64,000 bases of DNA from Stratiolaelaps scimitus. Taxonomy: Eukaryota > Arthropoda > Arachnida > Mesostigmata > Laelapidae. The stretch's first letter is position 1; each line of letters starts with the position of its first letter. Shown here piece by piece: positions 3,140 to 64,000 of the stretch. Where the stretch lies: positions 7,440,001-7,504,000 of the forward strand of contig JABWDB010000012.1 of the NCBI GenBank assembly GCA_019614645.1. The letters run 5' to 3'. Made by a program: the position numbers and the translations under genes. The notes beneath the pieces are model-generated. The model saw nothing but the letters and a program-made list of their open reading frames with translations. It was not told the origin of the DNA and ran no database searches.

Positions 3140-3245
3140 ATGCCTACCAGCAGTGCAGGTGGCATCCCTCGAAGGAAAAACAAATGGCTTAGGTGTTCTT
3201 TGATACTGGGAGCGGCCTTACAGTTGCATCTATGCGCTGCATCCG
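3140..3245 (+). CDS. Gene A exon 1: signal peptide
   Basis: ATG at 3140 opens MPTSSAGGIPRRKNKWLR, followed by a hydrophobic core (CSLILGAALQLHLCAAS) and a phase-1 donor gttagt. The layout (long charged n-region, hydrophobic core, small residues before the splice) is the same as the first exons of genes B and C, which supports this start. Confidence 0.75.
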
Positions 3246-4136
3246 GTTAGTTCGAAACCGTATTTCCGTTGGAACTAAGTTTAGGTGTGGGTTCTTTATC
3301 GCAATACAAACTACACGTGATGTTTCTGTTCCTAGCACGTTAGCAATTGAGTTAGCCAAAACCTGTTGCCGAAATTTCGTATGCAACTAAGATTGAAGTC
3401 TACACAATTATCCGTAGTAAAGCCTAGCATGGTTTTCGTCTACTGAGTAGCGTGGGTTCGAGCTGTGACAGCCCTCGCAGCGCCAGCTTTAGAACGTTAT
3501 TTACGTAAATCATGGCGTCATTCCCGTGATGAGAAAAACTTCGCTCGCCAATGTTCGCTCCGTTCTAATATTTTGTCTCGAAATTGCAATATCCTGGGCG
3601 CCTTTTTCTTTGTGCTATACAACACTATAGTTGTATTCCTTTGCGGTACTCGGATTAGCGGATTCTGAAGAGAATGAATTGGTCTCTTTGCTTAAAGAGA
3701 CTAATTCATTCATAAGAACATCACTCTTTGTATATGCTAGGCACTATTCAAGGTGATTGGTCGGTCGTCAACGTGCAACAGACGAAGGACCCTGGCAGCC
3801 TGTAGCCAAGATAGTCTAGCTCTTACAAACAGAAAGATTGCGTTTCTAAGGACGAAATCCGAAGCGTTGATCTGACGACGTGATTAACAAATTTAAATTT
3901 AAAATGTAATCTTTTACAGTTTGTGAGGGTGACTCTAATGAGTTCCCTCAATGTTCTATCGACGAGATTGCTGCTCGCCTTTATGAACCCGGGGATAGTT
4001 ACGAGTGTAAGTATACCCTGGAGCCTGAGAGAAGCTTGATTCAGGGGAGTAAAATAAGGAATACCTATTTTATTCTAGATAGCCAAATAGCTTCCTACTT
4101 GCTTTCCTTAATTATTTTATTAATTAGAAATTAATA

Positions 4137-4172
<36 letters not shown>

Positions 4173-7100
4173 TGGAAAGAAATTAGAGTCATGTATTACT
4201 TTCTCTGGATTATCTTCTATATATATATATATATAGATCTACTCTTCCTCAAATCTAACTTTGTATGCAATATCTATACCTACCTCACTCTTACTATAAT
4301 ACCATCATAGCTTTTTCGTGTTCATGATAGCTGCCCTGAACTGTGGTCTTATGACTCACGATATGAACGGATACAGGATTTCATCGACAGTTATTGATTC
4401 ATATAGCCCGTCTATGAACGGTGAGCATAGCATAGCATCTACATTTGTCGGTTCCGCAGTAGCGGCTGTGAAAAACTTTGCACAGGGTGATTTTATTACT
4501 GTGATGGTACTGATTGATTACTGTCTCAGGGTACGGTCGCGAGGATGCGGAAGAAGGCAACAAAGGAATGTTTTATTCCCATGCTGTGAACAAAACAATT
4601 CTTCTGTGACGTCTACGTTAGTCCCCAATAACGCTCCGGCCCTAAAGCTGAGGGTCAGCTGGAAAAAACTCAGCAGTAATAACTCAGCTGGCAGCTGTCT
4701 TCCAGCTGACCCTCAGCTATCTCGATACAGCATCCTCCCCCTCCTACAGTTTGTTTAACTGGAACGTTTGTTTCGTGGATTGATCGCGTCTTGGTTGCTT
4801 TCAGGGACACAGAATGCGACTATCAAAGCCACTGTGGTGTACACAATCGAGCAGAGGGCGTACACCTATGTTCGTTTTCCAACATGCTATTCGGATGTTA
4901 GGCAGTATACCTTAGAATACAATTATTTAGACAAAACTATCACCGACATGCGGAGGAAGATAGTTGTCGAACTGGACGCGAATAAGCCGTGGCTCACTCT
5001 AGTCTTTCCTACGGGCACGACCGTTGAGCTCAACGGTTATGGGTTTTGTGGAGAAAAGTATCCCCGACCCATGGGCAATGTCGTATTGTCAACTGGCCCA
5101 GAGGGTAAGTAGTTTCAGCGATTTATTTCGTTTTCCTTGTGTACACTTGGCGAATAGTAAATTCGAAAGTCAAGTAAATACAAAGCTACAACTGTATATT
5201 TGTATTCGCTTGACGTGATTTCGGTTTACGTGGATTGAGTATACATCAACGGCATGGCGGCTGACAAGTGACAAATTAATAAAAAAAAAATTAAAAAAAC
5301 CAAAATTATTAATAAATAATTTTGCTACTTACTGCTAAATTAGTAATATTTTGCATTATTTACTACTCGTACTAAACATTTACGTATGAGTGAGTTCCTG
5401 TGCTCTTTTTACGATCGGGTTAAACACTCCCACGGGTAGCATAGAGCGCACCATGTTTACTGCAGGTAAGTCGCATGCTTCTGTTAGTAACAGTATGCAA
5501 GTCCCAGACAAGTGAAGCGGATAAAGGTTCAGATTCACCTGTTAGTATTGAACTGAGTCCTGCGGTTGACTAAGCGGACGTGCTCCGTGTTTCGATGGCA
5601 TACGCGTGCAGCAGAGATAGTCAAGAGATAGCATGATCGTAGGAACGCGGAAACCAGGCAGCAATCTCCCGGTGGTGTCAGTCCTATAGAAGTCAGCGGC
5701 GTCTTCGTGGCGTCTTTACACGCTCAAACTAAGGTACGGTGCGTATGTTTGCGATGCCCCTTCCAGCACAAAAACGGACACTCCATATTGAAACCCTGAT
5801 GCAAATGGAGCCGGGAGTAAAGCGCGTTAAGGTCTCGTTTCCAACGATCAGATCGTGCGGCAATTCCCCGTATACCCCGTTCTTCCATGTGAGGGTTAGC
5901 CGGGGGCCGAGGGCCGAGCGTCACCAACGCCTAATGAATCTAACCGCGGGCAACCGTGACATCGAGTTACGTCTGCCATTAGGGTTAGAGTACATTCTCG
6001 ATGGCTATATCAGATGTGGCGAAGTGGTCGAAAGAATAACTCGTACCATCTTCACTGGCGGTAAGTGGCATCCTTCCGTTAGTGATCATGTCTCTCTAGA
6101 AGAGACATGATCATTCATTTCACCTGTGGTCATCATGATCATCATCATTGTGTAGGCCTTCCTGGTCAATAAATTACATGAAGAATAGCGGTGTCAATGT
6201 TTGGTACATTGCGGCGCTTGCTTGTTACTATTTCCACAACTAAAGGATTGTAAAAATTTGATTAATAACCAATCTTAACATTGTATTGTTTGCCGAGCCG
6301 AACAGCCATACGCTTCCTCCCACACTGTGGCGAAACCACGATAGAGATCAAACGATATATCTTATCATTGACTAAGCGTTGACGGATTCCCAAAGTACAC
6401 AGTAGCTAATATAATACATCCGAGATTTTTCGAAACTTGTCAATATTAACCTGATGTATCCTAAGTCAACGATGTGAACTTTTGTATGTTGTTTGATCAC
6501 ATGGTGCTCATGTATGGTACGTACCTAGCCCCGCGGACTGCATCCAGACACAGCGGCTACATTAAGAAACCAGCAGCACCTTATGGAGGGGTGCCATTTG
6601 TGCTGTGCTAATTTTATGGTGCCGATAAGCTGCCTCTGGTGACTCACTCGATTACTTTACCAGCGTCCTTTTTCATTCAATCTCATTAGCCCCAGCATCG
6701 GTCTACTTTAGCCACCTGGTCGACGACGAACGTATGCCAGTAACGAACAGAGCCAAGCTGGCAATCGTCATGAATCCAGCCCATATTCGACATCCGTTCA
6801 TGTACATTATTACCTATTGCCACAACGTTTTCTGCCGTATTCACACTACACCAGTCACCGGCGAAACAACGGTATGATATTTGTCCAATCAGATTTCCAC
6901 CTACAGCAGCAAATTATTAACGTAAATCCTCCTGCAGCGTAGTGAGTTAACCCATCGGCGAGTATGAGGTTCATCTATTGTTCTAAGGTTAAACGTAAGA
7001 CCCAGATACTTTAGGAGATACTGAGGCACCTTTCATATTTATTGCCTTTCCCACTGCCCGAGCTGATCCCTTCGAATCTGCCGAAGTAGATTTCGATTTT

Positions 7101-9526
7101 AGTCGTTAGTGCAACTCGTTACGTATGCCTTGTACTTAGGTGACTTACAACTTTTACAGGTAGCGGTACTAACCGATATAAAGGCTGAAGCCGACTACGA
7201 ATTTACTGTGTACCCCCTTGTTAAACCTGTATCTGGGCGCATCCTTGAGGCACCTGAGCTGTCAGGATGGTTTACCCCACCTAAATGTCGAATTTGCCAC
7301 GGTAAGTGTCAAGAAACGCTTAATCTTCATTATATATAAGGACCTCTGATATATAATGGAGCGAATCGACTTCCATCGAATTCAATTCCTCTCTTCTCTC
7401 TTATGGATAAATGTCAAGTTTGTGGGGTCTTCGAAGCAATACTAAGTTTCGGTTTAGTTAACGGAAGCTCTAGGTTTCCATAGCGATTCAGCACAGCAGG
7501 TATTCTTGCTGTTGGAGATGGTAAATTTTTTGGTGTATGGCACTACTCTTGACTTGGACATACTGTTTCCGGTGTATGGCACTACTCTTGACTTGGACAT
7601 ACTGTTTCCGGTGTATGGCACTACTCTTGACTTGGACAGACTGTTTCGTATTCCAGACTACAATTATATGATAGTGACCGTTCGGAACTACAAGTCCGGT
7701 ACTACGTTCATTAAAATAAAGCCCCCCGCAGCGTGGTGTGATCACCCATCGGCGTACGAGGTTCTCTATCATTCCAAGGTCAAAAATAAGACTCGATCAA
7801 TTTGGAAGGCCACCACAGAGTACGATTTCACACCAACGCTACAAATACAACTTTACCAAGATTTGGACCCAATCTTCGAATGTCACCTCGTTTGTAACGG
7901 CAAGCTCGAGATTCTCGATAGAAAAAAGATAAATATGGGTAGGTGTCAATCTATAGTTCCTCCGAGATTGTTTTAGCTATTGTTTCATCAAAACAATAAC
8001 TAAAAAAATGTGCGGAAAATAGCCGTGCTATAAGATGTCGCCAACTCGTGTCAATCTTTAGTTCCTTCTCTTAGCCCCGATCGCCGATCTATAACAGACG
8101 AGCTGCTAATCTTCCACCTGTTTAGTGAATCACACAAATGACTGTCTTTCGCGCTCCTTAGATGTTGGGGTAATCGAGGCTGTTCGGGTGACACCATCAA
8201 GAGCGAAGGATAACGTCGCCACCTTGACGATGAGAATGACTGAAAGTGTTGCAAATATGACGTGGGTGATGTCTCTGCTTTACTGCCACCCATTAGCTTG
8301 CTTCGAACGAGTGAACACAACATACAATGGTCATAAGGTGAGCTTCGATGTGTTTCTTGATGAATCATATTGCAACTGGCTGTTTTCGTAATAACGCTGC
8401 TGTTTCTAAATATCTCCCATAAGTTGGAGCACAAGGTGAGCATTGAGGGCATCGAGTGCATGGTGAGGTACACTCTCACAGTAAGCTCGCACATGCTTCT
8501 GCCCAACATAACAGTGCCTGAATCGGAAATCAGCTACGGACGGACATTCTACGGCACGTTCCAAATAACAGATTGCGACGATTTTCCAGGTAAGATACAT
8601 GATTTGTTCCGGTTTCACGGACGCCATTTTGCACGAAACCAAAAGTAGCAGGATGAATTCAGGGGATAATTATCGCAACTGAGTACGAATAATTTTGTTG
8701 CAGTTGTTATTTTGGTTCTATTGGTTCTATCCACACTATTCCCGATAGAGTCACGGGCGATCCGATCATCGGTGGCGGAGGGAAGCCCATCGGTACCGAG
8801 ACTAAGCTCAACGTCTCGAGCAGCAACTGGGGCAAGGTGGCAGTTGTCAAAATGTGACCAAATACTAACCATTAATGGAGGGTCACTAACTGATGATAAC
8901 TTGCTCACCGCAAAGCGGAATTAACCGATTCGAATGTATGTAAGGGCTGCGTCCATGACAGATTGGCTACGCCAGCCGAGCATTCCAAACTGCGTTGGTA
9001 AATTTCATCAAACATTAAATATGAGCCGACCAATAGCCACCATGAGGTAGAGCATTTACTGCTAAGTGTTCTCATCCTGATGCTTGCTAATTTTTTCTGT
9101 TGCACCTTCGATTGCTGCTTTACGATCGACTCGTCTTGGGACGCATCCAGTGTTATATGGTGTTCTTAACGTCTCGTTGGTGAACCCGACTGAAAACTTT
9201 GTGGATATAAAGATCACACCGCATCCAGCCAGCTGTTCCTATCCAGAATACAAGGTTCGATACGAGAGCGCTGCGGATGATGGTTTTATGAAGAAGAAGA
9301 ATCCCACAAGGGGAGCGCTGTACAACACGACCCTGACACATTGGCCAACTGATGTCGTATTGAGAGGATTTCACTATTGGGAAGACGTTGCTATGGAATT
9401 GCGCATCGTTTGTGGCGACAGCGTTGACCACTATTATGGACGAGTCAATACTGGACCTGGAAGTAAGTTGAGAGCACGACTTATTTTACTGTATTTAGTA
9501 CTTGTATATATATATAGATATATATA

Positions 9527-9600: not shown

Positions 9601-12600
9601 ATATATATATCTATATATCTATATAAGTACCTTATATATATATATATATATATCAGGGACTACCATCACCAGAGTGATGACCAGAGACTACCAGAGTAGC
9701 AAATAGTTCCACCATCATCACTGACTACGCCATTCAACGTAGAGGATGACACCATCAAGGCAACGTTGGGTACTTGGGCACATACCAAACTGATTTCGTA
9801 CGAGTTGGTGTTGTTGTGTTTACAAAATAGAAGTCGCCGATTACATATGCTAACTATTCCCACTGTGCCGATTCCCTGTTCCCATTAGAGCCACGCAAGG
9901 TCATCCTTGTCCAGGGGAAGCTGGTCGGTACTGTGGCCGAACTTGACGTCCTCGTCGACACCGACCATGGTATTCGCGTCCCGGAAAAATTTCGAGTTGA
10001 AGCGTTAGTTCGCAGGAGACCAATTGTCACGACGTTCCACCCGTGTCAGGGCCGACATACGGTGCGTGAATGGTTTTGTGGTATATTGCAGGGGATATTC
10101 GAAAATTATTATCTGGGATTTCTATATGGCGACGTTGCTTGGGTGGGTGTCATATTGAATGGACGTGCCACGCCCATATTAGTTCTAGTTGTCGTTGTAT
10201 ACCAACATTGCGCTGGTAGACTGTTTAGGTTACTGCAAATCGTGAAATTGCAAACCCAAACAGATTAAGCAGTGAGCTTAATTGGCCATTGCAGACAATC
10301 AAGATACATGACGCCGCCGAGAGAACTAGTTTTTCAGTGAGTTCTGTGGTCACGAGCAAAGCGAGCAACGGCGAAACCTTGGAGTTTGTGGGAGAACCAT
10401 ACACCTTCATCTTAACGTCTCCTATGGGTAATGACAGGGTTGTCAGGTCTTGTTATATATGCTGATACAAGTTGGGAAGATTGTATCATCCCGTAAAGCG
10501 AATTATTAGAGGTATTGGCGCGTATATAGCCTCAGCCTATTTTTTTTATGGGTGAGTGTTCTTTCACAATTGAAGAACGCTGCTAAACACGGTTATTATA
10601 CTTAGTCTCTGGTCTTTCTAAACCCCACCTCGCATGGGTCTTTGTCGCGATTCCTAAGCTATATTGTATATTGGACATAGTACACGTAGATTAATTAATA
10701 GATTAATCTATTAATTAATCTACGTGTAATGCGTCCAATATACATAACATTTTTTTTTTTGGACCACCCACGACCTTGTGGGTGGCAAGTTTATTAAGAC
10801 AAAATTACGGAACATGTACATGATTACTTCGTAATCATGTACCAATATACATACATATAGAACGTGAATAATACAGTTGATCAGCAGATGCTGGCTGTGT
10901 GTCAGCGCAGGGCCAGGTATGAGAGAAAAAACGCTATGATGAATGACACTGTGCTGACATTATTAGGCACATTATTACTCTCCTGTGGTCTCTTCTCTTC
11001 TCAAAGGAGAGACCACAAGAGAGTAATAATATTATTATTATATTATATTTTCCATTATTTTCCGACTTGCTCTTATAATAATAGTATGCAGCATGACCGG
11101 ATTCTCTCTTGCTTCTGCTATTATCAGTGTCTCGTATATCAGAATCGACGAAGCTGATCAGCGACCTTACTTGGGAGTCGGTCCACATCAACACGCAATA
11201 CGCAAGTTTGAATGCGGACCCAGGCGAATTAAATTTCCGAATCTTTCCGACGTACAGTGATTCTACAGCGGCAGAGATGGACCATAAATATGTCGTGACC
11301 CAGCACTCAGAGAGGGTAGGATAATTTACCCACGTTCTAAACCCTGGAGTACCCCCGGTGAGATCATTCCATTTGACAGACAACCTATAATTTCGATCTG
11401 GTCGAGGAGGCTCTCCTTGGCCTTCGGCATTCGAGTGGGAGAATGATTGTTGCCGACCATCGTCGAGAGACGACCATAAATATATTGCGGCGAATGCTCC
11501 CGCGATATTCAGCCTTCTCGCTATGGTTTTGATTTTGGGTACAGGCGAAATTACAGGAAATCCTTGACTTCCTCGTCGTGAGTTCCTTTTACAGGTCTTC
11601 GCGGTAGACTACCTCTTTCCTGGGATCCAGTATAACCTCTCGATGACATACACGGACAAAGTGAGCAATAAGAGTTTCGAGCGATGGGCAGCATTTTCTA
11701 CACCGGAGTGCCTTGCAGATTGTCCAGGTAAATCACCTTCAGCTATCCGTGTTGCATTCGAATGATGCGTCTATAGTGACCATATATTTGGATACCATAG
11801 ATCGGAACGTTCACGTTAGCAATGCTATCAATATTCGCGGTTCGATACCCCGGCTGCGTGTATCCCGGCCTTTCTATTGTCGGGTCACTATACACTGTTC
11901 TCAAATGATCTGCGGCCAAGCGCAACCCATAATTGCTTTGATTGCTTCTATTCGCAGCACTTTTTATGCGAGATGGGGGGCCCGCGTCCGTCTGAATACC
12001 CTCACCTTTATTCATAGCCTTGGCGTCTCCCGAAGTTCACCGTTCCACTAATAATCGACCACCTATGATTTCGACCAGGTCGAGGAGGCTCTCTTCGCCC
12101 CATATCTTCCCATGTGTGGCTAGGCGTGCCTCCTCTACCTGAAGATATTTTAGCCGACTATGACAGGGATTTTCACCATGATGACCAAACTACCTGGGAG
12201 TGGACCACTGAACCCCCGAATAGAATAATAGAACATTGCCTTCTGGTCACTAGTATTGGAGATACTGCAGTTCCCGCAGTGGACAGCATCTGATTATAAA
12301 GGCCACTACTGCTAGGTACTCGTATAAACATTGTCCATATACTGCTAAAAATACACCCGTTTTCAACTTGTGCTATCGAGAATTAAAATATTTTAAACTC
12401 AATATGGGGGATCACTTAGTCCTTAAATCGATGAAAAACATAGTAATTTGTGGAAATTGATGTGAGCATGTGTTTTTGAATGAAAATTCCAGCATGAATG
12501 CATTCGTATCTATGTTTCAGTATATAACGTATTACAATAAGTAGTTACTATTGCTGAGATGCAATGGTAAGGGTATTACATCGATGTGTGCAGGCTGTCT

Positions 12601-22518: not shown

Positions 22519-23730
22519 AGTAACCTCTATACAACTTTTTGTCCTACCATTGCGTAGATTATTTTCGTTTATCAAAAAGAGATGTCGAGCAATTATAAAT
22601 CGACTACCAAGTCTAGCTAACGTGCGGCGGTCAACGGCGTCGTGGAGTATTAGATTGGCTGACATCCGTTGTCGGAACATATCCAAAGCTTTTCTCCTTT
22701 AGCAATGTTTTAGCAATCTTAACAACACAATGCACAGGGTGACCCAAAAATCGAAGGGCGTCCTTTAGCTCGCTACACCGGTCTTGCCGGCCTGCCCCTA
22801 TATGCCGACATTTCAGGCAAGAGCACCATTCTAACCAATGCAGGCAGCGGGCTCATATGTGGCTCTCTTTGTACTACTCAGTCCAATTTGAGAGATGAGA
22901 CACAGGTAGTCGCAGGTTGAACAAAAGAACACACCCTCAAATAATGCTTTTGCAACGAAGGACATTTAGTGTAGCGCGATGGCCGAGATAGAATCAACCA
23001 ACCTTTATTTGTACCAGATTTGCTTGTATTTCAATCTCCCCGTTGCAGGCAAGAACCCATAGACAAGGAAGGATGATAACAGAATCCGAAGACTCTGGCA
23101 GGATTTACTCCTAAACCAAATGTCGCGTTCCCTTCTAGAAAAACAATACGCTCATCACTAGATCACTTAAGGGACCTTGACTAATAATTAACCCAACATC
23201 CCTAGAAATCCCGAGCTACTGTATGTTTGAATAAACGATCAAGGCATAGGCAATTATACCCAACATGTTGGTACAAATGATTAGAAGAGCAATCGCTCGA
23301 GTTGTGCCCAGGCAGTTAGTACAATACATTACGAACGGTTCCCCAGCGGGTATCTTCATAAAACAGCGTCTTGTTTGCATCGACGTACATTAGAATGAAG
23401 TCAGATTTCATCAGAGAGCTTCGTTTTTGCGCTACTCTGCTAGATAATGGTGACATCTATCTACTACTCACTCTTGCAGGATTTTTCGGCATTTTTGTTA
23501 TCTTCATCTCCAGATCGAAAATTCGATCTAGAGATGAATGCTGTAAAATGTCTTCTGTAAAATACTAACGACAGCCAGCTTAAGGCGTGACTTTGGGCTA
23601 TTAAAGACCTATCAATACATTTTTGAGGTTCGTTCAAACGACTTGTCAATACATTTTGACATTCGTCCAACGTTCTATACAAAATTTCGTATCTGCATAG
23701 CTATCATAAATCCAACTACGTATATATATG

Positions 23731-23764: not shown

Positions 23765-23810
23765 ACTATCGTATAGCGTAGAGCGAATAGCAGGAATAAG
23801 TGTGTAAGAG

Positions 23811-25349: not shown

Positions 25350-25389
<40 letters not shown>

Positions 25390-26717: not shown

Positions 26718-26756
<39 letters not shown>

Positions 26757-43140: not shown

Positions 43141-43823
43141 CAAGTATAGGGTATAAGGTACATGATAGCAGGAGAGGAATTGGGGTCATCATGGTACCTG
43201 GGAGAAACGCGAAGTAGCGGGGGACCACTGAGCTAAGTGAGTGGATTCCTTGCTGTTAGAGGATAGTGGAAAGGAATGAGGGGATTTATTGCTTAATTAA
43301 ATGAACTGAAGGAATTCTGAGGAACTAAGAAACTGAGGTGGCAGGGATACATTGAGAGTCCGATGAAAAAGGCAAGATATTGGGACGAAGTCACCTGTAC
43401 CGAGTGCCGCTCACGTATATTATGGTTTATCCTGCTTATAATCAATAAAATCTGTGCCGCTTACTACTCTCGCGAACTTCCTACGGTCCTCGGACTATTG
43501 CCGGCTTTCATTGCGCGGCTTCGTTTTTGTATGATTCTGGTATCAACTTTTCAAGTAAATCATAGTGAAACACACACAATCATATGAAATACGATGATGA
43601 ATAAATGTGGTACTTTTTAAGTCGAACCTGGTCGGACATTTTTATATAATTGTCGGTCTTCGAATGCATTTCGTAAATGGTCTTCGGATACACACAAGAG
43701 CTGTACAACAGTCACTAAGTCACTATTTCAGGCTACCAAAAACGTATCGATCGATTCCTGGGTTAGAGTATTGAGTTTGCCGATTCGAATCGACAACAAT
43801 ATCAAAAATATAACCTAAGTGCT

Positions 43824-43859
43824 TATATAATACTTCTAAACAGTCTGGCGCCGAAGTGT
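43824..43859 (+). promoter_or_regulatory. Putative core promoter of gene C
   Basis: TATATAA, then CAGT (43841-43844) and GGCGCCGAAGTGTG. ATG is 64 nt after CAGT. The block is shared with gene B almost base for base around 'gcgccgaagtgt'. Confidence 0.55.
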
Positions 43860-43904
43860 GCCACTGAATAGCAGAAGGCCACTGGTAGGCCTACTTTGTA
43901 AGAG

Positions 43905-44034
43905 ATGCCCACTAGAAATGTCGAAGATGGCATTACTAAGGAAAAGAGGCGATTCTGGGTACCGCCGAGTATTAATTGTTGTTCTCTAGTGCTGGGATTT
44001 GTCTTCCTTGGATGCCTCCCCTGCGCTTTAGCCG
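43905..44034 (+). CDS. Gene C exon 1: signal peptide
   Basis: It opens MPTRNVEDGITKEKRRFW and has the core CSLVLGFVFLGCLPCALA, then a phase-1 donor. The exon lies inside the right arm of the inverted duplication. Confidence 0.8.
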
Positions 44035-53000: not shown

Positions 53001-56000
53001 CATGTCCTCATCATCTTCTGCTCACCCTCGAGCGTGGACGATACGGTCCACTACTTGCATACCCAAGTCGGCCCCACCTTGCTAATTGGACCATCCTGTC
53101 CCGTTGTCCTTCTTGATTCGCTAGTCGTGCTAGGAGGATACCAGAACCGTGTGGGTTAATCATTAATCCGACTATAATCGTGCCAGGTATCGTTATCAAT
53201 ATATAATAGAAACGACGACAGAAAACAAGCACAGAAAATTGATACAGCAAATTCCGCGTTCATTCAATCGCAGGGCAGAATCGGTATGTCCGAGTAATTC
53301 CTCATACGTCATAACAGGACTGCTCCAAGGGGAGGATATTGCATTCAACAGACAATGATGATGACGGAGGAACTATCAATGAACATACCATGATCTAAAT
53401 TTGCATACAATTTACTGCGTTGGTTGCAATCATCGTTTTGTGTGTGCCACCCAAGTAGTACTATTATTATATTAATATTATATATATATAATAATAATAT
53501 TAATATAATAATAGTTAATTATTATATGTTAATAATAATTACCTATTATTGTAATAATACTGATGATAGTGCAATAATTCGATTGCTCTGCCCCTGATCA
53601 CACTCGACAGTCTGTGAAACTGAGTAACGTCGGCGATATTGACTCCGAGGTGTTGTACAACGTCTCAGTGATTGCTCTCACGGGGATGAAGAAAGACACT
53701 CAGCACCCGCCCATGGCGGAATACTCGACCACATTTAAGATGCCAGACTGTGATAATTGTCCAGGTATGGTTACATTATTTCTTCCCTTTCTCTCCTCTG
53801 ACCTGTGCTGGCGGCGTTGTGGAACAGTGCGGCTGCTATGGACTGCACCACGACTTGTGATAGCCGCCGGTTCGATCCCCAGAAACGATATAACTAGCAA
53901 TTTCGTGCCTTCGCATACGTTCGTCGAAAGAAAGCTCTAGTGATGTTCTTGAAGCAATTCTACATAACGGTCTGAGAATGGAACCTGCGAACGAACGGAC
54001 TGGGATTACGAACCGGGATTAAGAAATTTTCTCGATTTATGGAACTGTTGACGATGTTCAACAGCACCACCCTTTCCGGTATCGCTTATCGCATTCTTCA
54101 GTAAAGGGTGGTGAGATGTGCACAAGGTCAGGCACGAGCACCACACATCCTCTTCACCGTACGGACATGACGTGGTTAGGTGACTCTCAGCTGCTTCCCT
54201 TCTCTCTCTCTCTCAAGACCAGACTTTCTCTCAATACCTCTGTCCAGTTCCCGCCTGTAAACAACTACTGTGGTCAATAGGGTGTCTGTAGAAAGCCCCG
54301 TATATGTGCAGTTTTTGATGCCAGAGACATTGTAATCATACGGGTGAAAAATACGTCAAATTAGTCTTTTTGGTGTGTTTTTGGTTATCCTAAAATCGGT
54401 TCGTCCTGGGAATTTTCAGTATCATATGGTGTTCTTACTATGCAGCAAGATAAGGTCTACGATGATGTCGTCGATGTCAAGATATATCTACCTATGGCGA
54501 GCTGTTCAAGACCCGAGTATACTCTTCATTACGAAAGCTTCCCGAAGGAACGCAGTGCATATGTAGCTGACTTCAGTCCACATCGTGGCACCATACGCAA
54601 GTTTAACCGTACCCACCTTACGCGACCTCATAGGGATTTCTTATTGAAAGGCTTACTCTATTGGGAGGATGTAGGCGCCAAACTGAGTATAGATTGCGGA
54701 AAGCGCGTCGATACCTACTATGGAAGAATCAACACTGGCGAAGGAAGTGAGTGGCATACGTTATTTCTGTTCTCGGCACGTTATTTCTGTTCTCGGCGGT
54801 CTAACACATCTGGACAATCCGCTTGGGTACGCCTAAATGCGAAGAGAACAACAGTGAGAAGCGTCTCTACGTCAGGATACCTAATGCCGTGCCAGACATA
54901 GCGGAACCTCAATGTTTGGGGCTACGTTTGAATTTAACAGTTTAGTATAATTTAGCTGGAATTTCACTTGTTGTTCATATGTTGCGATTCCGCTATGTGT
55001 GGCTGTGTCGCCAATACACACAGATAGCAATGAATGCAGAAATGGTCAACGATGTTGTAACCAAAGCATGGTGATTATAACAAACAAAGCATTAGTGGAG
55101 AGCGCTGTCGTCGGCCACAGCGCTCAAGTAACAGTGCGACTTTCTTTTGACAGGACCGCAGCCGATTTCCAACCTTCAAGCAAACTTCAGTGGTTCTTCG
55201 GTAGAGATCGCAGTTTTTATCGACAACAGATTTAAGAAGGGAGTGCGCCTCGTAGATCTCATCGTTGTCGAAATTATACCTCCAGTCGACGAAGGGAAAC
55301 CGAGCGAGAAGAATTTTACCTTCGAGGGTCTCCATACGGTGGGTAACTTTGTCGTCACTGGAAGGCGTGTTCGGGGTTAAATTTGGGTGACAATTTACTC
55401 ACTGGAAATTTGGAATATGAGTATCTGAGTATCCTTGATCCAATCTGCTCCCCTTAATCCTTTGAGGGACACAATGCCAGCGTACCACGCATGGCTCGTT
55501 GGCATTGCGCAGTGACCGCAGGCGTGAGTTTAAGAACGATACGTAATCCCTTCCTATTAACATGCATGGCAATCACTACTATTACAGACGATTCACTTGG
55601 AAGGCATCAACAAAAATTACACGGTTTTGGTGTATCCTGCTATTTCGAGTTCTAACGCGCCCAGTGGACGATGGAAAGGGGAGCCCTACCGCCTTAACTT
55701 CACCAACGAGAGAGGTATAAATCACTGACGTTACTTGCATTACATTGTCCTAATTATCCGGTTGCTGCAGCTATCCTATTCTCATCTGCCAATTAACTGT
55801 CTGACTTTTATTCTATTGCTCTACTTGACATATAGGCTCACAGCGCATTAATAAAGACAGCCAATGTTACTATTATATCATAGTCCACGTCATTTCCACG
55901 CGTCTAAGGTTCCAAACGCAGTGTACCTAGCAGGCAGGAAGACGCGGGGGATCAACCTCCTGCTCGACGGTCACCCGATAGAAATCAGGCGAGACGCGAA

Positions 56001-59000
56001 ATTCAAAAAAAGTCATTCTTGACCAGAGGGCTAAGCAACCAGGTACGCCCCAGCCAAGGCACGGAGTATCCCTGAACCCGGCGCGCCGGGTGCCTAGATG
56101 GGGGGAGTGCCGGAGGAGAAGAGGAGACTGCTGGCTACCGTTGCCAGCAGTCTCCTCGAGTGTATTGCCCTTTAGGGTTCACCAGTATGGGCGGACTTGG
56201 CGCTCCGTACGGCGAAAAATAGAGGGATGCTGGCAATCGGGGTGAACCGGGCGTACCGGACTGTGTCGATCGACGTTCTCCTGGCCCTAGCCAGGATTGT
56301 TACCGTGGGATCTGCTAGCTATTGAATGAGGCCTCAGGCTCCCGGCTGGAGGCCTCTCCCGACGCCTGGCAACAAGAGTGGGCGCAGGTTACTCCAGGAG
56401 TGACGAAAGTGTGTTGGACCAAAAGTCTGATACCAGACCTCACGTATGATACCAGAGCTCACCCTCATACGTATGAGGCGACGCAGATGCTGACGGGCCG
56501 CGGGCAGTTCCAGGCCTACCTGGCTAAGGTCGGAAAGACGCAGGTGCACATATGCGTGCTGCCCGCCTCGGGAGAGGTGGACGACGCTAAGCACACGGTG
56601 ACCCAATGTGTCACTAGCGGCAGCCAGGCAGGTAGCTCGAGGGAGTTGCGAGGAAACAGTTTGTAGCACATGGTCAAATCGAGGGAAGCCTGGGCGGAAG
56701 TCTTAGAAAGACTGGATGGGGGGGGGGTCATCAGGCTAAAGTAGATTGAGGAGAGACAAGTAAGGGCCCGAGTGATTTACCAAAGCCCCTCCCCCGGGGG
56801 TCTTGGGAGTCCCGCTCCACCGTTAGCTAGCCCGGCGGTGGAACGGGCAGCCGGTACCTCTTGGGTAGATTGGCCGGCCTGTCTCGAGGGCTTCCTCCTT
56901 CACCAGTCTCTCCACGCATTGTCGCTGCGGGCCGGGGATTCGGTGACCGAGCGTTCCCGGGCAGGACCCCGGCACTGAAGTAAACAGTAGTCGGCCGGAG
57001 CAGTACACACCTTCCCTATAGATCGAAGTTATGCCAAGCGTGCTGACTCTAGGGAAGAGATACACTCAGCAGGGATTGTTTTAGCAGGCAGAGGCGTTTT
57101 GTCATCCACGTCAACCCTGCACTGGATCGCCCCACTTCCACTGAGATTGGAATGTCTCTGGTGGTGTCCGTGCGTCTGAAGAAAATGTCCTCCTCTCAAA
57201 AGTTCTAAAGTAAATTAGATGAAATAAGTGACTTGTGTTGTAAACAGAACAGTTTGCATGTGGGTAATAGGCAGCAGAAGGGGCCACGTCATATGAAGGC
57301 AACAGGAGGGGACACAGTGCAATCCCGAAAGCAGTATCGTAGATGTCGGTTGCAAATCAGCCAACGGATTTTTTTTTTAATTTCCTCAGATAATTGAATG
57401 TATCCATATGAAAAGACCTTAGCATAAATCCCGGCTAAAACGTCGCCGAGTTGACTGGTATCTCACTTGCTACCTGGTATTTCTGTTAAGATAACATTGT
57501 AGAGTCGAAGGAGCAACATTACATTATCCGATCGTCTTGGTATAATGTCTCCATTATCGTGGATGAATCGGCAGCAGTTCTTGATGTAAACGCTTGTCCT
57601 ATGCCCTGGCCTGTTGTGGAGGAGACACGCGGATGCTCAGTACTTACCTGGTCAGCGAACGCATTGGTATGATATCGTCCAATTATATTATCTCGTACTT
57701 TACCATTGGCCATCGAAACTGAGGGACAGCTGGGGGTCAGCTCGAAAAAATTGATGCGGTTTTGATGCTAGGTTGTTCGTTGTTAGATCAAGGCATCTGT
57801 GGTGGAATTACCACATTGCATACACCGTGTGTATGAAGATACTTAGAGGTTATTAGAGGACGCCTGTCACCCGGATCACGGAATCTTAATGCTTATAAAA
57901 TGTAAACAGAGTACATTCCGTCTGAACCCTGGTGCAAAATTCAAGCAAGTTCGGGGTGTGTTTTTCGAGTGCTCTTCCTCAAATTGACGACAACTATTAT
58001 ACTTGACCTGACACATTTTGGCTTGAATGAAAATGTGGACCGAGGAGACTCTGCTTGTCTTGCTTGTATTGAAGAAGAATTTCAATCGAATTCAAATATC
58101 GAACTTATAACGGAGCTGCCATTCAACAACGCTACCATTTACCGTTCATTTGAAAAAGAAAACTGGTAAAAGTCACAAAATGTGCAATTATACACTTGTA
58201 AACATACAATCACAGCTACAGCTGAGTAGGTGGTTGAGTCCAATTATTATTATTGTGACAGGAATAATTGGACTAGGCGTACAATATAAAATTCACGGGT
58301 TCTAACTGAGGCGACTGAGCTGATCTCGCGTAGAATAGGACCCGACAGCTACGATAATCGATGAGCGAGAACGTGCCTGCTGTTCTCTTAAAACATAGGT
58401 TATCTCAAACCTTGTCGCGCGGCGGGTTCCGAAATCAGCTGCAGTAAGCGGGAAGGAGGCATCATCTCCGGCGGGATGATGTCCTTCGATATTTAGCGAC
58501 GCGTGTACTATATATCTTGTCCATCAGTAACAGGTTCTTAGAGGAATATATGTTCTGAACCGAACCCATGTGTTAGCAGGCCTTCGTATGGTACACCGAG
58601 GCGTCATAGCGACACAGCAACCGCGTAGCATTTACGAGACCAATGCTACGAGGTGAGCTTGCCATTGTACAGTGTCTTGAAGGGTCAGACCGAGGCATTT
58701 TGTCGTGTGCGACAATTGGCAACCTTCACCGCAGAAGACCACCGATTCAATGCAAATGGAACTCTGCGGCCGGTGAAATAAGACGAGGTTTATTTTGCTT
58801 GCATTGACTAGTAAACCAAATGCGGAGGAAGTGGTGGAATGTTTAGTTTCCACCACTTTTTCCGCTTACATCGGTGCTGCCTTAAGGTCAGATTGGATGT
58901 GCGACGGCCGAAGACGAAACAGCAGAGAGGTATCGTCAGCATAGGTTATCACTCTGCATTATCCATTCTTCGCGATTTTGAGAAGAATTAAATTGATTGA

Positions 59001-62000
59001 TGATTGATGTAAATAATGAACATAAACGGACCCAGGACTGACCGCTGAGGAGTTCCAATATATACCGCTTCCCACGCACATTCTGTACGACCCACTCTTA
59101 CTGTCTGTCGTCTGGTGGAGAGATACGTTCGGAACCAGTCTTCGCACTGCATCCAATCGCACTGCATCCTAGCATTTGAAAGCATGCTTCAGGCAGTTGA
59201 AAGCAGCAGTTATATCCCGCTGACCCCTCCAGCGTCCTGCTATCCTTTTCCAGAGGATTACGAACTACATCGTACTAAGTTATCATTTGTGATATTTAAA
59301 AAAAAATCGCAAATTGTATGTAAAAAAACTAGTGCTTCCCTGTCTACCTACATAAGAGCTGCTACTGCTGCGTTTAATTTATTTTGTTTGTTTCAGCATG
59401 CGGAATTGATCAACCTATTTCCTGGCATCGAATACAACGTTACTGGGTTGCTCAATACGAGACATGGAAAGCGCATAGAGTTTAATGACACATTCGCCAC
59501 ACCGGACTGTCTGAAAGACTGCCCAGGTATGGTCGTGACATTTTGTTACAAGGACCCGATGTCAACGAGGCCAGGCTTGTATGGGCGTGTAATGTATAGT
59601 GGTATTTCCAAGTAGTATCATAAGAACCGGTCGGGTCGAGTCGGGTGATGTTTTGCAGTTGTAGTTGTATTTGGAGCTTTTTTTGAAAGCTCTAAGTCAG
59701 ATTCATTTTTCATTCCCTCCGAATCGTCTTAAATAGGCTATTGCGTGCTCCAGTAACGGCTTTACACAGGTTGCGCCCGGGGTCCGGATATTTTACAATT
59801 AGTCTACCGATTCCGTTGCCGTAACCTTCAACACGTTTGCAGATATGCTGCAGGAACAGCTGGACGTGCTTGTTTTGCCACAGTCTGAGGCGACCGTGGA
59901 TATTATCATCTCCTCCCCTGACAATAGCGGATATGAGGGACTAATTTCGTTTAGAAACCAAGACACTGGCAAGGACGAACACACATATATCCACTCAAAT
60001 GCGACACCAGCAAAAATCGAGGGGCTTTCATGTTGTACGATCTATACGATCAGGGTTCGTATAGGACGTGAAACCAAGTACGTCGCGCGACAGGATGTAT
60101 ACACAGGTTTCACGGGTATGTAGTAGATTCGAAGACTTTACGATACGGCGCCAAGTCTCTGACGTTGTACATTGCATACAAGTTACATCAGGTTGCTCGT
60201 AAAACCTACGAGCACAACAACGTTCTAAAACAAATCGTAAAGATTTGTTTTAGAACGTTGCTGTTGACTGTCTGAATAATTGCGGCTAATTGGAATAATT
60301 AACCGAAATTATTCAGACAGTTAACTTGGGTCTTGGAATAAGACCCAGAGATCCCGACCTGTGGGTTTGCCAGCCCCACACATCTCAATTGTTTATTCAT
60401 AATGTGACTACCCATTCATAATGTGAATATAAATACCGGCTCCTGGGAATAGGGGCATCTACCGAGCTAGTAACGAAGCACCTAGCTTAGTCGCTTAAAG
60501 AGTCAATAATAGAAATATGCTCAGTATATCAGATGAGCCTGACCTACTGGATCATTGAATGCTCAGTTTATGGATTCTTGGTCCAACATTCAGCTTTCTC
60601 CGATAGCGCAAAAGCAAACATCCCTTCCCATTTTGGTCCGAGGTGTCCAATGTGAAACTGGCTGAGGGGACCCTCCAGCTGACCCTCAGCTCCCCCCCGC
60701 CCCCAGCTGTTTTTTCCAGCTGACCCCCAGCTGACCCTCAGCCGGAGGGTCCCCTCAGTCGCCGGTCGTGGCACTCATTTAGTCACTGTAAATAGGCTCA
60801 CCTCAAGTGATGATGCCATCAGTAATTGAAAATTTGGAATTTGGAAATAGCATTGTTGTTTACTAAGTGTTTTCTAAGTAATTATGATCTTACCCATCTT
60901 CCACCTTTGGCAATCTAGTTTTCCTTCGTACACCTGTTACCGGTTGATTCTCTTGGTCATCTTTTTACACATCCGTCAGTCATTAAAATCGTCTCAGAGG
61001 CGTGGCCAACGACTTCGGCCAGAGCTTTCAGTTACATATGTATTTCATGCATTTGTCAAGCAGGTTTTTGTTGCCCTGATGGGAAGCATTGCGGTATTGT
61101 TAATCCCCTTTTCCAGATTTCTGGTTCTGGCCTGATATCTAGAGATTACGCTGTGGCTGACACCGTGGGATTACTGTCTGGCCACGCAGCCAATTATTTT
61201 ATTCGAAAACACGCCTCATTAATGAACCGAGTACCACTATAGACATGTGGCCTTAAGCATTGGTAGGACCAGGTATACAATAATTTCAACAGATACTAGG
61301 AGAAAGGTTATCATACGCTACAGGAAAACCACGTGCAACAACGTACGTTTTCTGATAGCACAGTTCAACGAAGCATTGCCGTCGAGATGCTGTTTTCGAT
61401 GTTGACCCTCCCTCTATTCAATTTTTTCTTAAGGATATATTGAAGGGGCTGTTCTTCGGATATATCCTTAGGAGAAAATTTTCTCCTTATATAAAAATTA
61501 ATAAATATATTACACTTTATATTTATCCTACATGGAATATGTAGGATATTAAACTTCGGATATTTATATATATATATATATATACAAGTTTAATATCCTA
61601 CATATTCCATGTTATTTATCTATCCCATATATAACATGGAATATGTAGGATATACAGTGTGATCATAGTATATCTGTATCTGCGAATCGGCTGATTCGGC
61701 TTTGCGGGTGAGCTCGTTGTCATCGGAAAGTGGCCCGCTATCAATCGTTGGTAGTAGTTATTTGGCCCGTCTTGAAACACGAAGGAGTTCAATCTGCATG
61801 TATACATGTATGTAGACTGTAACGGCTGGAATGTGTTGTGTGTTCTCGTGTGTCCCCCGCCGAAGAGGTGTTTCCAAGATTTCGATTTTATGTTCTGAAA
61901 CACCGCGTCAACTTTGACGTTCGAGTGCAAGTGCCAGTTGGTTACCGGGAGGACAACTCAAGATTCGTTGTTGGCTCCTGCCCTACAACGCTGAAATTTG

Positions 62001-64000
62001 TTGATTGTGAAGCTGGAAAACGCCTAGCCAATACAACCATAGAGAAGGAACCCAATATTATGGTACGATCATGCTCAGCTTTCCCTAACAAAACGGTTTT
62101 CTGATAGGACACTTCGAAGAAGCATTGCGTCGAAAATGCCGTTTTCGATGCTGAATCAGAACTAAACAAGCAACAATTGACACTGCGAACGACGGGGTCG
62201 GGGGGCAAGATCTCGGGCATTTCGATTATCTCGATCACAGGGACGACTGTCACTGTTATGAAGCGCGAACTTATGTTGCGACTTTTTTTCGAACTATTAG
62301 CCCAGCATATCGTGTTTCCGTAATGAAAATTGGAATTTTGGAAAATAATAATTCTATAATTGAACACTTGTCGATATGCTAAGCTGAAAATTGCCTGTTT
62401 TTCTCGTCCAATGATCGAAACACTCAGCAGGTTTCAGCGGGTCACATCCTGCACAGCAATAAACGCTGTCTATCCGCGATAATCAAACATTATACAATCC
62501 ATAAATGAAACCCAAATTATTTTATATACAATGAAATTATATCGCAATGCAGGGATAGCAAGACAGCCAGATCGACATACGGAAAACTGGAACTCGGGGA
62601 CTACTGTTACCAGTACTGAGGACTATTTGTTCCGAGCGGCATGTTTCGTTTCCGAGTACAAATGCCTGCGAACCAATTTTATTGCAGATTGACGGGCTGC
62701 CTTACCATAAGCTACTCGGGTGGAAGGAAAGTAGTAACCGTGACAAAAATTTGTGGCACTATGTCATAGTCACGCCTGTTATCCGCTTTGGTTCGACTTG
62801 GCTCGAAGGACCGTTGACTATACGGTTTGCTGAAGGCTGTGAGTTGCACGTTTCTCTAATCTTTACACAGCTATTGAGCAGACGAGATTGGCACATCCTC
62901 CCGAGTGTCTTCATCATTGAGGCAAAGGAATGCTAAGGCGTTACCAGCCCATGACGGTTCTTGCACCGCTGAACATCTATATGCTGTTGTATTCTTGTAG
63001 TTAGTTCCAACATCGAAACTTCGGATTTACTCGACTCACCTGCCTGATACTAACGGATGGAATGAGACAATCTATATACATTATTACGGGGCTCTCGAAT
63101 TAGGTAGGTAGTCTAATATGTTCGCCTACCTAGCTCGAGAACCCCGTAATAATGCAATATCATAGCCCCGTCTACCCTAACTGTGTTTTATACCGTTTCC
63201 CGTGGATTGCAGTTACTCGTGACGACCATACCTTCCACATACTGCGTAAGTATAGGCAATAAAAGTGGCTCTTCTCTTCGGATTAACCCCCCCCGCCGCC
63301 GCCGTCGCTGCTGGGGTTACTCTGCACCTAATCGTTTCTACCATTAGGGGCTTGATGATGAGCGATTTTTTAAATCAAATCATTTACAATCATTTGTGAT
63401 CTTTCCGTAGCCCTGCAGCTAGCAATGGGAGAGGGGACAGACGACGTTGTGGACATCTATATTCAACTCTGTCCGAAGTGTAAGACACCAATCGTCAGGG
63501 GTCTTACTATCAAGAATGCCTTCTACGAGATGGAGAATACCCTCGCTGAGACCGGTACGAGGATTTATTGGGACCATCTTAACCTTCCTGCGGGGACATC
63601 TTTAGTTTTGCTCAGGGGGTTTCCGAGGAATGAAGACTTTCGGATCGAACTAAAGTTAGACTGCGGCAAACCTCCGATTTCCAGATACCTCGGATCGATC
63701 TTTACGGGATATGGAGGTGAGTGTTGCTAGACCCGTCTCCCTAGCATGTGCAAGAAAGCGAGTACAGCATTACGAGGGCGAGTGCGCTCGCTGGAACAGG
63801 GCGTCGCTCTGTCGTGTGACTGCGACATTCATTATCGAATGATCCGAGCACCCGGCGGAGCTTGCCACTATTCGAGCTGCTGAGATTCTCGCTTTCCACC
63901 CGCAGCAGTTTTATTTTGCAAAAGCTCTGTTCCTCGAGGACTCGGCACGTTGCTGTGGATTTTGCTTCGTCGATAAACGTAGGCCCTCCTAATGATCATC
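43905..64000 (+). CDS. Gene C: FN3-like repeat protein, 3' end outside the window
   Basis: The third tandem paralog. Seventeen complete exons and the start of an eighteenth encode about 1,085 codons: signal peptide, linker and ten complete modules, in the order of gene A but without A module 4. All exon lengths fit the intron phases and no stop interrupts them, so it looks intact as far as seen. It is closer to gene B than to A by eye (modules at 54420 and 59843). Its introns are much longer because of retroelement insertions. Confidence 0.78.
44240..44475. repeat. Copy of the 105-330 repeat, gene C intron 1
   Basis: Same orientation and order as 105-330, with a few indels ('acctcatggtgg', 'cgccaatccgga', 'gaggagaccacacgcaccc'). 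Confidence 0.7.
44514..44560 (+). repeat. Tandem hairpin-A-tail motif
   Basis: GGCTGAGGGTCAGCT + GGAAAAAACAAAAAAAA, then directly AGCTGAGGGTCAGCT again. Two units in head-to-tail array joined by the A tail. Confidence 0.8.
44884..44995. repeat. AT-rich foldback with CACCCGAAACAA ends
   Basis: cacccgaaacaa and ttgtttcgggtg are inverted, and 'acacccgaaacaa' recurs after a (AT)n spacer at about 44977-44990. Confidence 0.65.
45192..45281 (+). CDS. Gene C exon 2: Cys-containing linker
   Basis: A 90-nt phase 1-1 exon encoding DCEGVESELRHCAVEDRA..., like A exon 2 (VCEGDSNEFPQCS). Confidence 0.65.
45472..45860 (-). repeat. LTR-like repeat, 3' copy of BEL/Pao element
   Basis: It aligns over about 380 bp with 47697-48076 ('gtcgtcttggtcgactactc' vs 'gtcgttttggtggactactc'; 'aagcagagg', 'cgccacctgtcctga', 'taacaaataat'). 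The two copies flank Pao-type coding relics. Exact ends and target-site duplications were not resolved. Confidence 0.65.
46130..47435 (-). pseudogene. BEL/Pao LTR retrotransposon pol relic, gene C intron 2
   Basis: Read on the minus strand: a possible protease remnant (GVSSYGAGKALGTVTAHF, 47226-47435); a reverse-transcriptase/Pao block with FSVEKWATNS, HTFLGVKWHQ and KGMAKIFNPLGMLA (46500-46790); then NPADLPSRGTTPDA and PDWLQGIRRPE (about 46310-46410); then RFSSWAKC near 46150. NPADL.SRG and KIF.PLG are typical of Pao elements. Frames are broken in several places. Confidence 0.75.
47697..48076 (-). repeat. LTR-like repeat, 5' copy of BEL/Pao element
   Basis: The partner of 45472-45860. The divergence between the two copies is considerable, so the insertion is not recent. 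Confidence 0.65.
48428..48700 (+). CDS. Gene C module 1 (type I; equals A module 1)
   Basis: A 273-nt phase 1-1 exon. FAFVTFPECEGWPQKFVLNY and VPLGAELSVNGESFCG; same strand and Cys layout as A exon 3. Confidence 0.82.
48880..48956. repeat. Palindrome of the SINE 2 tail
   Basis: 'ataaaggagctgcaatttta' / 'taaaattgcagctcctttat' are inverted around a 14-bp loop. One arm, with 'ttattggttt' before it, matches the SINE 2 tail at 15386. Confidence 0.75.
49036..49190 (+). repeat. SINE family 2 copy
   Basis: Head 'gcggtggcttgcatggctaagtctctggctatcagaagccggaggccgcaggttcc', ending near 'cctttattaagccaataaagc'. The B box is partly decayed (CAGGTTCCGCAG). Confidence 0.55.
49327..49599 (+). CDS. Gene C module 2 (type I; equals A module 2)
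   Basis: A 273-nt phase 1-1 exon. VNVRFPSSDYC, YRTLQQPDYN and LTYVFDGYITCG. Confidence 0.85.
49815..49874 (+). repeat. Hairpin motif followed by AT microsatellite
   Basis: AGCTGAGGGTCAGCT (49815-49829) + CAAAAAAAAC, then (AT)n from about 49850. Confidence 0.8.
49930..51310 (-). pseudogene. R1-clade non-LTR retrotransposon, 5'-truncated, antisense
   Basis: On the minus strand from 51310: DDLAVLVEAKTSVELEL (the part of the (Y/F)ADD palm motif that survives), then after a frameshift near 51226 an open 387-codon frame (51226-50063). That frame has KSEAVVLTGK, VTQARYLGVHLDKGL, ANRTVSTLAD, ITGHGDFQAYL and a C-x2-C...H-x4-C end (CIHCLEG...HTLLVC). The upstream end falls exactly at the (AT)n at 51308-51336. 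Endonuclease and most of the palm are missing, so it is dead. Confidence 0.8.
51618..52155 (+). CDS. Gene C module 3 (type II, exons 51618-51781 and 52011-52155)
   Basis: The first half has PIESIEVQITANNSVEVRI, LTRTFPHTGLVT; the second has LPSLQPTAYTVTVVPI. A SINE 2-like head lies in the 229-bp intron (51826-51895). Confidence 0.82.
52490..53764 (+). CDS. Gene C module 4 (type II, exons 52490-52656 and 53611-53764)
   Basis: The first half has WDFVITYCHPLICFTY; the second has VKLSNVGDIDSEVLYNVSV and ends CDNCPG. The intron contains an AT palindrome at about 53458-53520. Confidence 0.85.
53785..53885 (+). repeat. tRNA-like SINE fragment
   Basis: 'gccgccggttcgatcccc' is a B box preceded by 'cagtgcggctgctatggactgc'. 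It does not fit the other two families closely. Confidence 0.4.
54420..54746 (+). CDS. Gene C module 5 (type I; equals A module 6)
   Basis: A 327-nt phase 1-1 exon. RGTIRKFNRTHLTRPHRDFL, GLLYWEDVGAKLSIDCG, VDTYYGRINTG. Followed by a 20-bp-scale tandem duplication ('cacgttatttctgttctcgg'). Confidence 0.9.
55154..55714 (+). CDS. Gene C module 6 (type II, exons 55154-55338 and 55588-55714)
   Basis: The first half has PQPISNLQANFSGSSVEIAVF; the second has INKNYTVLVYPAI and GEPYRLNFTNE. No Cys, as in B. Confidence 0.85.
55940..56760 (+). pseudogene. R1-clade non-LTR retrotransposon relic, sense orientation
   Basis: Broken frames read LLLDGHPIEIR, EEKRRLLATVASSLL, NRAYRTVSIDVLLALA, MLTGRGQFQAYL and AKHTVTQCVTSG, then EAWAEVLERL and EERQVRARV: the usual order in the C-terminal half of R1-clade ORF2. 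Several stops and frameshifts. It lies in the intron between gene C exons 11 and 12. Confidence 0.78.
56990..57205 (+). repeat. 3' end repeat of the R1-like element
   Basis: 'ttttagcaggcagaggcgtt', 'gtcatccacgtcaaccctgc' and 'gagattggaatgtctc' are shared with 34585-35050. Confidence 0.7.
57316..57366 (+). repeat. SINE 1 tail fragment
   Basis: 'caatcccgaaagcagtatcgtagatgtcgg', then a degraded hairpin region. The head is missing. Confidence 0.45.
57503..59526 (+). CDS. Gene C module 7 (type II, exons 57503-57666 and 59397-59526)
   Basis: The first half has VSIIVDESAAVLDVNACPMP and TRGCSVLTW; it was found only through alignment with B 31455-31612 (VCPVPWPF, DGCERG). The second has LFPGIEYNVTGLL and ends CLKDCPG. 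The 1,730-bp intron carries the hairpin motif at 57728 and an antisense reverse-transcriptase relic. Confidence 0.8.
57728..57750 (+). repeat. Hairpin motif copy
   Basis: AGCTGGGGGTCAGCT + CGAAAAAA, one mismatch in the left arm. Confidence 0.75.
58240..58280. repeat. Short palindrome
   Basis: gagtccaattatt / aataattggact around tattattgtgacagg. Confidence 0.6.
58625..59190 (-). pseudogene. Non-LTR reverse transcriptase relic, antisense
   Basis: On the minus strand: WFRTYLSTRRQTVRVG, IGTPQRSVLGPFMFIIYIN (family consensus GVPQGSVLGPLLF.IYIN), then YADDTSLLFRLRP with the catalytic DD, then GLLVNASKINLVLF and TKCLGLTL. Stops and frameshifts separate the blocks. The motif style differs from the two R1-clade copies and is closer to Jockey/CR1-type elements. 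Confidence 0.75.
59843..60115 (+). CDS. Gene C module 8 (type I; equals A module 9)
   Basis: A 273-nt phase 1-1 exon. LDVLVLPQSEATVDIIISS, IEGLSCCTIYTIRVRI and RQDVYTGF. Confidence 0.88.
60217..60324. repeat. Two adjacent palindromes, gene C intron 14
   Basis: caacgttctaaaacaaatc / gatttgttttagaacgttg (60218-60261), followed at once by ctgtctgaataatt / aattattcagacag (about 60267-60321). Confidence 0.85.
60656..60758. repeat. Cluster of hairpin motifs inside a larger palindrome
   Basis: AGCTGACCCTCAGCT at 60677-60691, AGCTGACCCCCAGCT at 60718-60732 and AGCTGACCCTCAGCC at 60729-60743, with T-run TTTTTTCC. The outer arms ctgaggggaccctcc / ggagggtcccctcag enclose them all. Confidence 0.85.
61420..61655. 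repeat. Array of AT-rich palindromes
   Basis: 'ggaatatgtaggata' and its inverse 'tatcctaca(t)attcc' occur at least four times in alternating orientation around an (AT)n tract (61564-61584), preceded by atatccttaggagaaaa / ttttctccttat. Confidence 0.8.
61866..62838 (+). CDS. Gene C module 9 (type II, exons 61866-62062 and 62688-62838)
   Basis: The first half has FPRFRFYVLKHRVNFDVRV and TTIEKEPNIM; the second has IDGLPYHKLLGW and FGSTWLEGPLTIRFA. It matches B module 8. Confidence 0.87.
63079..63154. repeat. Palindrome, gene C intron 16
   Basis: cattattacggggctctcga / tcgagaaccccgtaataatg with aggtaggta / tacctagc inside; about 30-bp arms. Confidence 0.85.
63411..63716 (+). CDS. Gene C module 10 (type I; equals A module 11)
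   Basis: A 306-nt phase 1-1 exon. DDVVDIYIQLCPKC, KNAFYEM, GFPRNEDFRIELKLDCG and SIFTGYGG. Confidence 0.9.
63983..64000 (+). CDS. Gene C exon 18, first bases only
   Basis: After the acceptor aacgtag the bases read (A)PPNDH, matching the PP opening of A exon 19 and B exon 35948. The exon runs out of the window. Confidence 0.5.

Follow-up and report, generated by a model that had tools for sequence, protein, structure and literature searches.

Three neighbouring genes that probably encode secreted FN3-array proteins in Stratiolaelaps scimitus

How did three series of related coding modules come to lie one behind the other on the same strand of the Stratiolaelaps scimitus genome, and what kind of proteins would they encode? 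The stretch concerned, hereafter the window, comprises 64,000 nucleotides (positions 7,440,001 to 7,504,000 of contig JABWDB010000012.1, assembly GCA_019614645.1), and in it we modelled three neighbouring same-strand genes, A, B and C, whose products are built of repeated FN3-like modules. We favour, as the probable answer, three whole-gene tandem paralogs encoding soluble secreted FN3-array binding proteins.

Gene anatomy and duplication history

The window was cut into six-frame stop-to-stop pieces of at least 35 amino acids (n = 1106), which were compared all against all by blastp. The related stop-free pieces line up on the plus strand as three collinear series; for module 5 the homology reached E 2.8e-54 between B and C and E 1.5e-27 between A and B. 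Module boundaries were set by splice sites after this step, AG and GT sites being chosen with phase in view. In the resulting models each gene begins with a putative signal-peptide exon, continues with a linker exon and goes on with module exons, and each module of about 100 amino acids is carried either by one exon (F modules, phase 1-1) or by two (ab modules, phases 1-0/0-1). The spliced frames of A (4824 nucleotides) and B (4233 nucleotides) stay open to a single terminal stop, and that of C (3268 nucleotides) to the window edge, which cuts the gene after module 10. The preliminary description had reported three genes in the same orientation with the same series of exons and identical intron phases; this stands with the amendment that B lacks module 1F and that an additional module, xF, occurs solely in A. 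Six-frame searches for module 1 in B and for xF in B and C gave no match that stood out. The introns are GT-AG in 60 of 60 cases, partly by construction as the sites were chosen as AG/GT, and the phases agree across genes for 23 of 23 exon names (xF occurring once, and linkers not yet being included), an agreement partly built in by the guidance of phase in site choice.

In all 64 directed comparisons the best cross-gene match of a module was the module at the same position, which argues that whole genes were duplicated. Duplication of this kind is favoured also because B and C share alignable non-coding DNA, which includes the 7b-8F intron and stretches of about 100 base pairs (bp) ahead of 2F and about 110 bp ahead of the start codon; their upstream alignment scored 49, against a maximum of 31 in 200 shuffles. 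Aligned-residue identities are highest between B and C (455/885, compared to 442/1262 for A-B and 313/961 for A-C), and on the whole B and C therefore split after A. Both results uphold the preliminary description, which had derived the array from whole-gene duplication, not from exon shuffling, and had placed the separation of B and C later than that of A. In the module trees no position is broken up by a strongly supported branch, as that description would have it, and the expected grouping by position is incomplete: 2F, 3ab, 5F, 7ab and 11ab each lack one resolved group, and 4ab and 6ab pair A with B, not B with C, though weakly (85/78 and 80/1).

Some modules are related to one another within a gene, and modules 5-8 resemble modules 10-13. 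The ancestral gene probably grew by block duplication, modules 5-8 being copied to 10-13; this older event, the loss of 1F in B and the presence of xF in A only had not been foreseen.

Domain identity, secretion and rate of change

Searched as a profile, the ab modules match fibronectin (E 6.2e-10), and the match of the F-module profile to FN3 is weak. The Pfam check suggested earlier succeeded in part: one of the three proteins, that of B, just reaches the fn3 cut-off of 25 bits, whereas single modules all stay below the Pfam cut-offs, and six hand-cut modules, some of them rough cuts or joins, found nothing in Pfam. B 5F was predicted as a seven-strand FN3 sandwich, and the structure matches of the modules include ectodomains of the insulin receptor, the growth hormone receptor, LAR and sDscam; for the predicted 14F a match to glycosidase domains ties with FN3. 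Judged by these profiles and predicted folds, the modules are divergent FN3 domains, as had been guessed. Most one-exon modules contain a cysteine pair, which may form a disulfide from the turn before strand C to the end of strand F. Five families came up when the three proteins, without their linkers, were scanned against Pfam at E up to 10; no immunoglobulin (Ig) family was among them, nor FN1 or FN2, and no other accompanying domain family exceeded its cut-off.

Protein database alignment searches, in which the queries were without linker exons and the best 7995 and 7992 candidates were scored, gave no homologue at E 0.001 and 10, and none was found in the viral contigs or in the bacterial and archaeal genomes scanned. 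Nor did such a family appear among the paper titles and abstract openings listed in literature searches. The family appears undescribed within the reach of these database and literature searches, its FN3 building block being ordinary. The lineage-specific status proposed earlier agrees with the empty searches and is not proven by them, since they require shared five-residue words and score best-ranked candidates only.

The signal exons of B and C are alike (E 6.5e-8, blastp) and were both picked up by a hydropathy scan, their N-termini, with a hydrophobic stretch after basic residues, standing at the top of the list. That of A is plausible by eye where the preliminary description had placed it; it is missing from the lists of two hydropathy scans, and its DNA does not match the signal exons of B and C. 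The putative signal peptides appear clearest in C and B and weak in A. The linkers of A and C resemble each other with a score of 39, which 21 of 20,000 shuffles attained, and that of B fits by position, length (87 nucleotides, equal to A) and phase only. TATA-like words precede the start codons of A, B and C by 104, 80 and 81 bases, respectively, positions given here without an estimate of chance occurrence.

Besides the N-termini, no 19-residue stretch exceeded 1.7 in the hydropathy scan of the three models, which detected no membrane segment, C being incomplete and the result depending on the modelled 3′ ends. In A, B and C we counted, before the linkers were added, 12, 16 and 16 N-glycosylation motifs, where shuffling gives means of 8.3, 6.3 and 6.7; of 300 shuffles, 30, 0 and 0 attained the observed counts. 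This excess fits a secreted protein.

Between B and C the nonsynonymous rate (dN) is 0.385 and the synonymous rate (dS) 0.718, with a ratio of 0.54 (bootstrap 0.44-0.64) over 885 codons; restricted to the 604 codons with well-aligned surroundings, a selection biased towards slow sites, the ratio is 0.41 (0.32-0.52). For A-B and A-C the silent sites are near saturation. The genes are constrained yet fast-changing. As judged from dN/dS, the fast change fits diversifying binding surfaces or relaxed constraint; in 5F the B-C differences (strand 16/60, loop 17/48) are too few for a claim.

Firmness of the exons and elements between them

Eight exons (A 3a, xF, 6a, 6b, 7a and 12a; B 12a; C 3b), and likewise the linkers, were first found by requiring the expected phase. 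In a decoy test, 11 exons entered 18 comparisons, each against 84-107 other phase-compatible stop-free candidates from both strands of the same gene, overlapping candidates being counted apart. The chosen exon came out on top in 12 comparisons. In four of the six remaining cases (A 6b vs B, A 6b vs C, C 3b vs A and B 6b vs A) forward-strand candidates of the same gene tied with or outscored it. The other two are B 12a vs A (rank 2), where antisense decoys scored higher, and A 7a vs C (rank 9), with higher scores among antisense and forward decoys alike. Confidence is lowest for the exons A 7a, A 12a and B 12a (Table 1).

Table 1. Modelled genes, exons and upstream regions, all on the plus strand (S, splice-site placement; P, first found by expected phase; D, decoy-tested)
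Feature	Position	Basis and remarks
Gene A	3140..19864	Spliced model; start to stop codon, 24 exons, 1607 amino acids, 15 FN3-like modules
A upstream	3036..3139	TATA-like word 104 bases before start codon; weak evidence, without chance estimate
A signal-peptide exon	3140..3245	Phase 0-1; read at earlier coordinate; weakest of three
A linker exon	3920..4006	Phase 1-1; similarity to C linker
A 1F	4805..5104	S
A 2F	5767..6060	S
A 3a	6690..6871	P, D
A 3b	7160..7301	S
A xF	7657..7938	P; module comparison; solely in A, resembles 5F
A 4a	8162..8337	S
A 4b	8424..8589	S
A 5F	9151..9462	S
A 6a	9889..10061	P, D
A 6b	10295..10427	P, D
A 7a	11143..11315	P, D; least secure
A 7b	11595..11727	S
A 8F	12846..13139	S
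A 9a	13498..13667	S, D
A 9b	13755..13902	S
A 10F	14522..14821	S
A 11a	15019..15203	S, D
A 11b	15681..15825	S
A 12a	15973..16127	P, D; less secure
A 12b	16857..17004	S
A 13F	17617..17895	S
A 14F with stop codon	19524..19864	S; in-frame stop
Gene B	23811..40846	Spliced model; start to stop, 22 exons, 1410 amino acids, 13 modules, without 1F and xF
B upstream	23702..23810	TATA-like word at -80; alignable with C
B signal-peptide exon	23811..23937	blastp likeness to C; hydropathy scan
B linker exon	24426..24512	Position, length, phase only
B 2F	25791..26063	S
B 3a	26485..26675	S
B 3b	27397..27535	S
B 4a	27776..27945	S
B 4b	29031..29157	S
B 5F	29626..29952	S; structure prediction
B 6a	30750..30937	S
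B 6b	31127..31259	S, D
B 7a	31455..31612	S
B 7b	32060..32195	S
B 8F	32500..32775	S
B 9a	33453..33646	S
B 9b	33966..34122	S
B 10F	35359..35658	S
B 11a	35948..36135	S
B 11b	36800..36944	S, D
B 12a	37461..37606	P, D; less secure
B 12b	38277..38406	S
B 13F	38685..38987	S
B 14F with stop codon	40509..40846	S; in-frame stop; structure predicted, weak
Gene C	43905..64000	From start codon as far as window edge; 17 exons and 10 modules seen, without xF; 1089 amino acids or more
C upstream	43800..43904	TATA-like word at -81; alignable with B
C signal-peptide exon	43905..44034	blastp likeness to B; hydropathy scan
C linker exon	45192..45281	Similarity to A linker
C 1F	48428..48700	S
C 2F	49326..49598	S
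C 3a	51618..51781	S
C 3b	52011..52155	P, D
C 4a	52490..52656	S
C 4b	53611..53764	S
C 5F	54420..54746	S
C 6a	55154..55338	S
C 6b	55588..55714	S
C 7a	57491..57666	S
C 7b	59397..59526	S
C 8F	59843..60115	S
C 9a	61866..62062	S
C 9b	62688..62838	S; final spliced model
C 10F	63411..63716	S; last exon before window edge

Further elements lie between these exons. Directly upstream of A xF a 39-bp unit occurs three times (7532-7647), open in the xF frame, and the leader of B, where module 1 is missing, holds a 258-bp palindrome around a TA repeat (25243-25500; outer arms of 49 nucleotides at 100%, inner arms of 91 at 92%). Upstream of the C signal-peptide exon there is a truncated inverted copy of part of it (43004-43134, minus strand; 92% over 137 bp), enclosed in a larger nested inverted-repeat structure (42637-44700; arms 42637-42684/44653-44700 and 42879-42910/44226-44257).

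The A 7b-8F intron contains a degenerate 5.8S-like ribosomal RNA (rRNA) fragment (12396-12525, plus strand, 51.8 bits), and the B 4a-4b intron an element of about 830 bp with inverted-repeat ends (28010-28838), which carries a 28S rRNA fragment (about 28110-28370, minus strand; the stretch searched scored 186.6 bits in Rfam) as well as a nested palindrome of 149 bp (28457-28605, arms 98% complementary); rRNA fragment DNA had no match among plasmids. An inverted-repeat element in the B 9b-10F intron (34483-35224) has a relative in the C 6b-7a intron (56830-57195). A reverse transcriptase remnant, presumably R1-type, lies in the C 2F-3a intron (50066-51247, minus strand), and a second, related piece in the C 6b-7a intron (56319-56663, plus strand). 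The intronic reverse transcriptase piece matches 10 proteins; two of the three named ones belong to an aphid and the third to a fruit fly (E 5.9e-4). These matches suggest, without proving it, an arthropod source, and an initial idea of a flatworm was given up in view of them. The window piece had no Pfam match at E 0.1, its relatives P0002 and P0004 have RVT_1, and the DNA of the region had no match among phages.

Alternative explanations and biological meaning

Gene anatomy, positional orthology, the FN3 relationship and constraint with fast change come directly from the calculations, and on them we base the following scenario. A whole gene of about 17 kilobases (kb), probably already enlarged by module-block duplication, would have been tandemly duplicated twice, first separating A from the ancestor of B and C, then B from C. 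Each gene, having its own signal-peptide exon, would be separately expressed from a promoter of its own, and the product would be a soluble secreted rod, possibly disulfide-bearing, in which a short linker is followed by 13-15 divergent FN3 domains (in C, 10 are visible). Most likely it would bind other proteins or glycans outside the cell, whether in the matrix, in haemolymph or in secretions linked to reproduction or feeding, and its binding surfaces would diverge after duplication.

The competing explanation that survives best, although unlikely, is that the proteins are adhesion receptors or similar to cytokine receptors, with a transmembrane exon overlooked here and the 14F stop not ending all isoforms. 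FN3 arrays are common in receptors, and receptor ectodomains are among the structure matches listed above, but in A and B, the two genes seen complete, the 14F frame ends in a stop, and no strongly hydrophobic segment occurs in the models, the intervals 19.9-23.8 kb and 40.8-43.9 kb not having been specifically searched for a membrane exon. We give distinctly less credence to a single diversified cluster of the Dscam or clustered-protocadherin kind, in which A, B and C would supply alternative first exons or cassettes for joining to shared downstream exons. Tandem same-strand repeats with equal phases would permit splicing between units, and chelicerate sDscam genes, with which the window has in common the tandem arrangement, the FN3 domains and module fold matches to sDscam FNIII domains, are described in PMC4835542 as tandemly arranged in arthropods, with tandem 5′ cassettes. 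Unlike sDscam, however, A, B and C show no Ig family or membrane segment in the scans, and each unit, with a signal-peptide exon of its own, looks complete, since A and B have their own stop after 14F and C shows the series again up to the window edge.

That the units are degenerating, functionless copies is very improbable: B is without 1F and the introns carry transposon and rRNA remnants, but the long frames are open in all three genes and the whole bootstrap range of B-C dN/dS lies below 1. Independent exon shuffling or single-module exchange between genes, for which phase-compatible modules and within-gene relatedness could be cited, is scarcely credible against 64 of 64 same-position matches in collinear order.

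The proteins of the three tandem paralogs resemble the FN3 arrays of fibronectin, tenascin, contactins and receptor phosphatases in their tandem beta-sandwich domains of about 100 residues (solved-structure matches), the likeness lying in the ab profile and one predicted F fold; some vertebrate fibronectin FN3 domains are also split over two exons. They differ from these arrays in that neither FN1, FN2 nor a membrane segment was found in them, that their single modules fall below Pfam cut-offs and that most one-exon modules have the cysteine pair.

The window would thus display two levels of modular-gene growth, a probable block duplication and then whole-gene duplication, with loss or gain of modules; the surprise is tempered by how common both the FN3 domain type and tandem paralogy are. 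A more far-reaching and rather doubtful reading is that these are lineage-restricted giant soluble all-FN3 recognition proteins, tandem-amplified and diversifying under changing partners such as hosts, microbes or mates, and, jointly with this, that they form an FN3-based counterpart of the Ig-based diversified recognition genes. Fast-changing, apparently secreted and without recognised relatives, the proteins are candidates for interaction with hosts, microbes or mating partners, and the cysteine pair may make their FN3 domain a naturally stabilised scaffold for binding.
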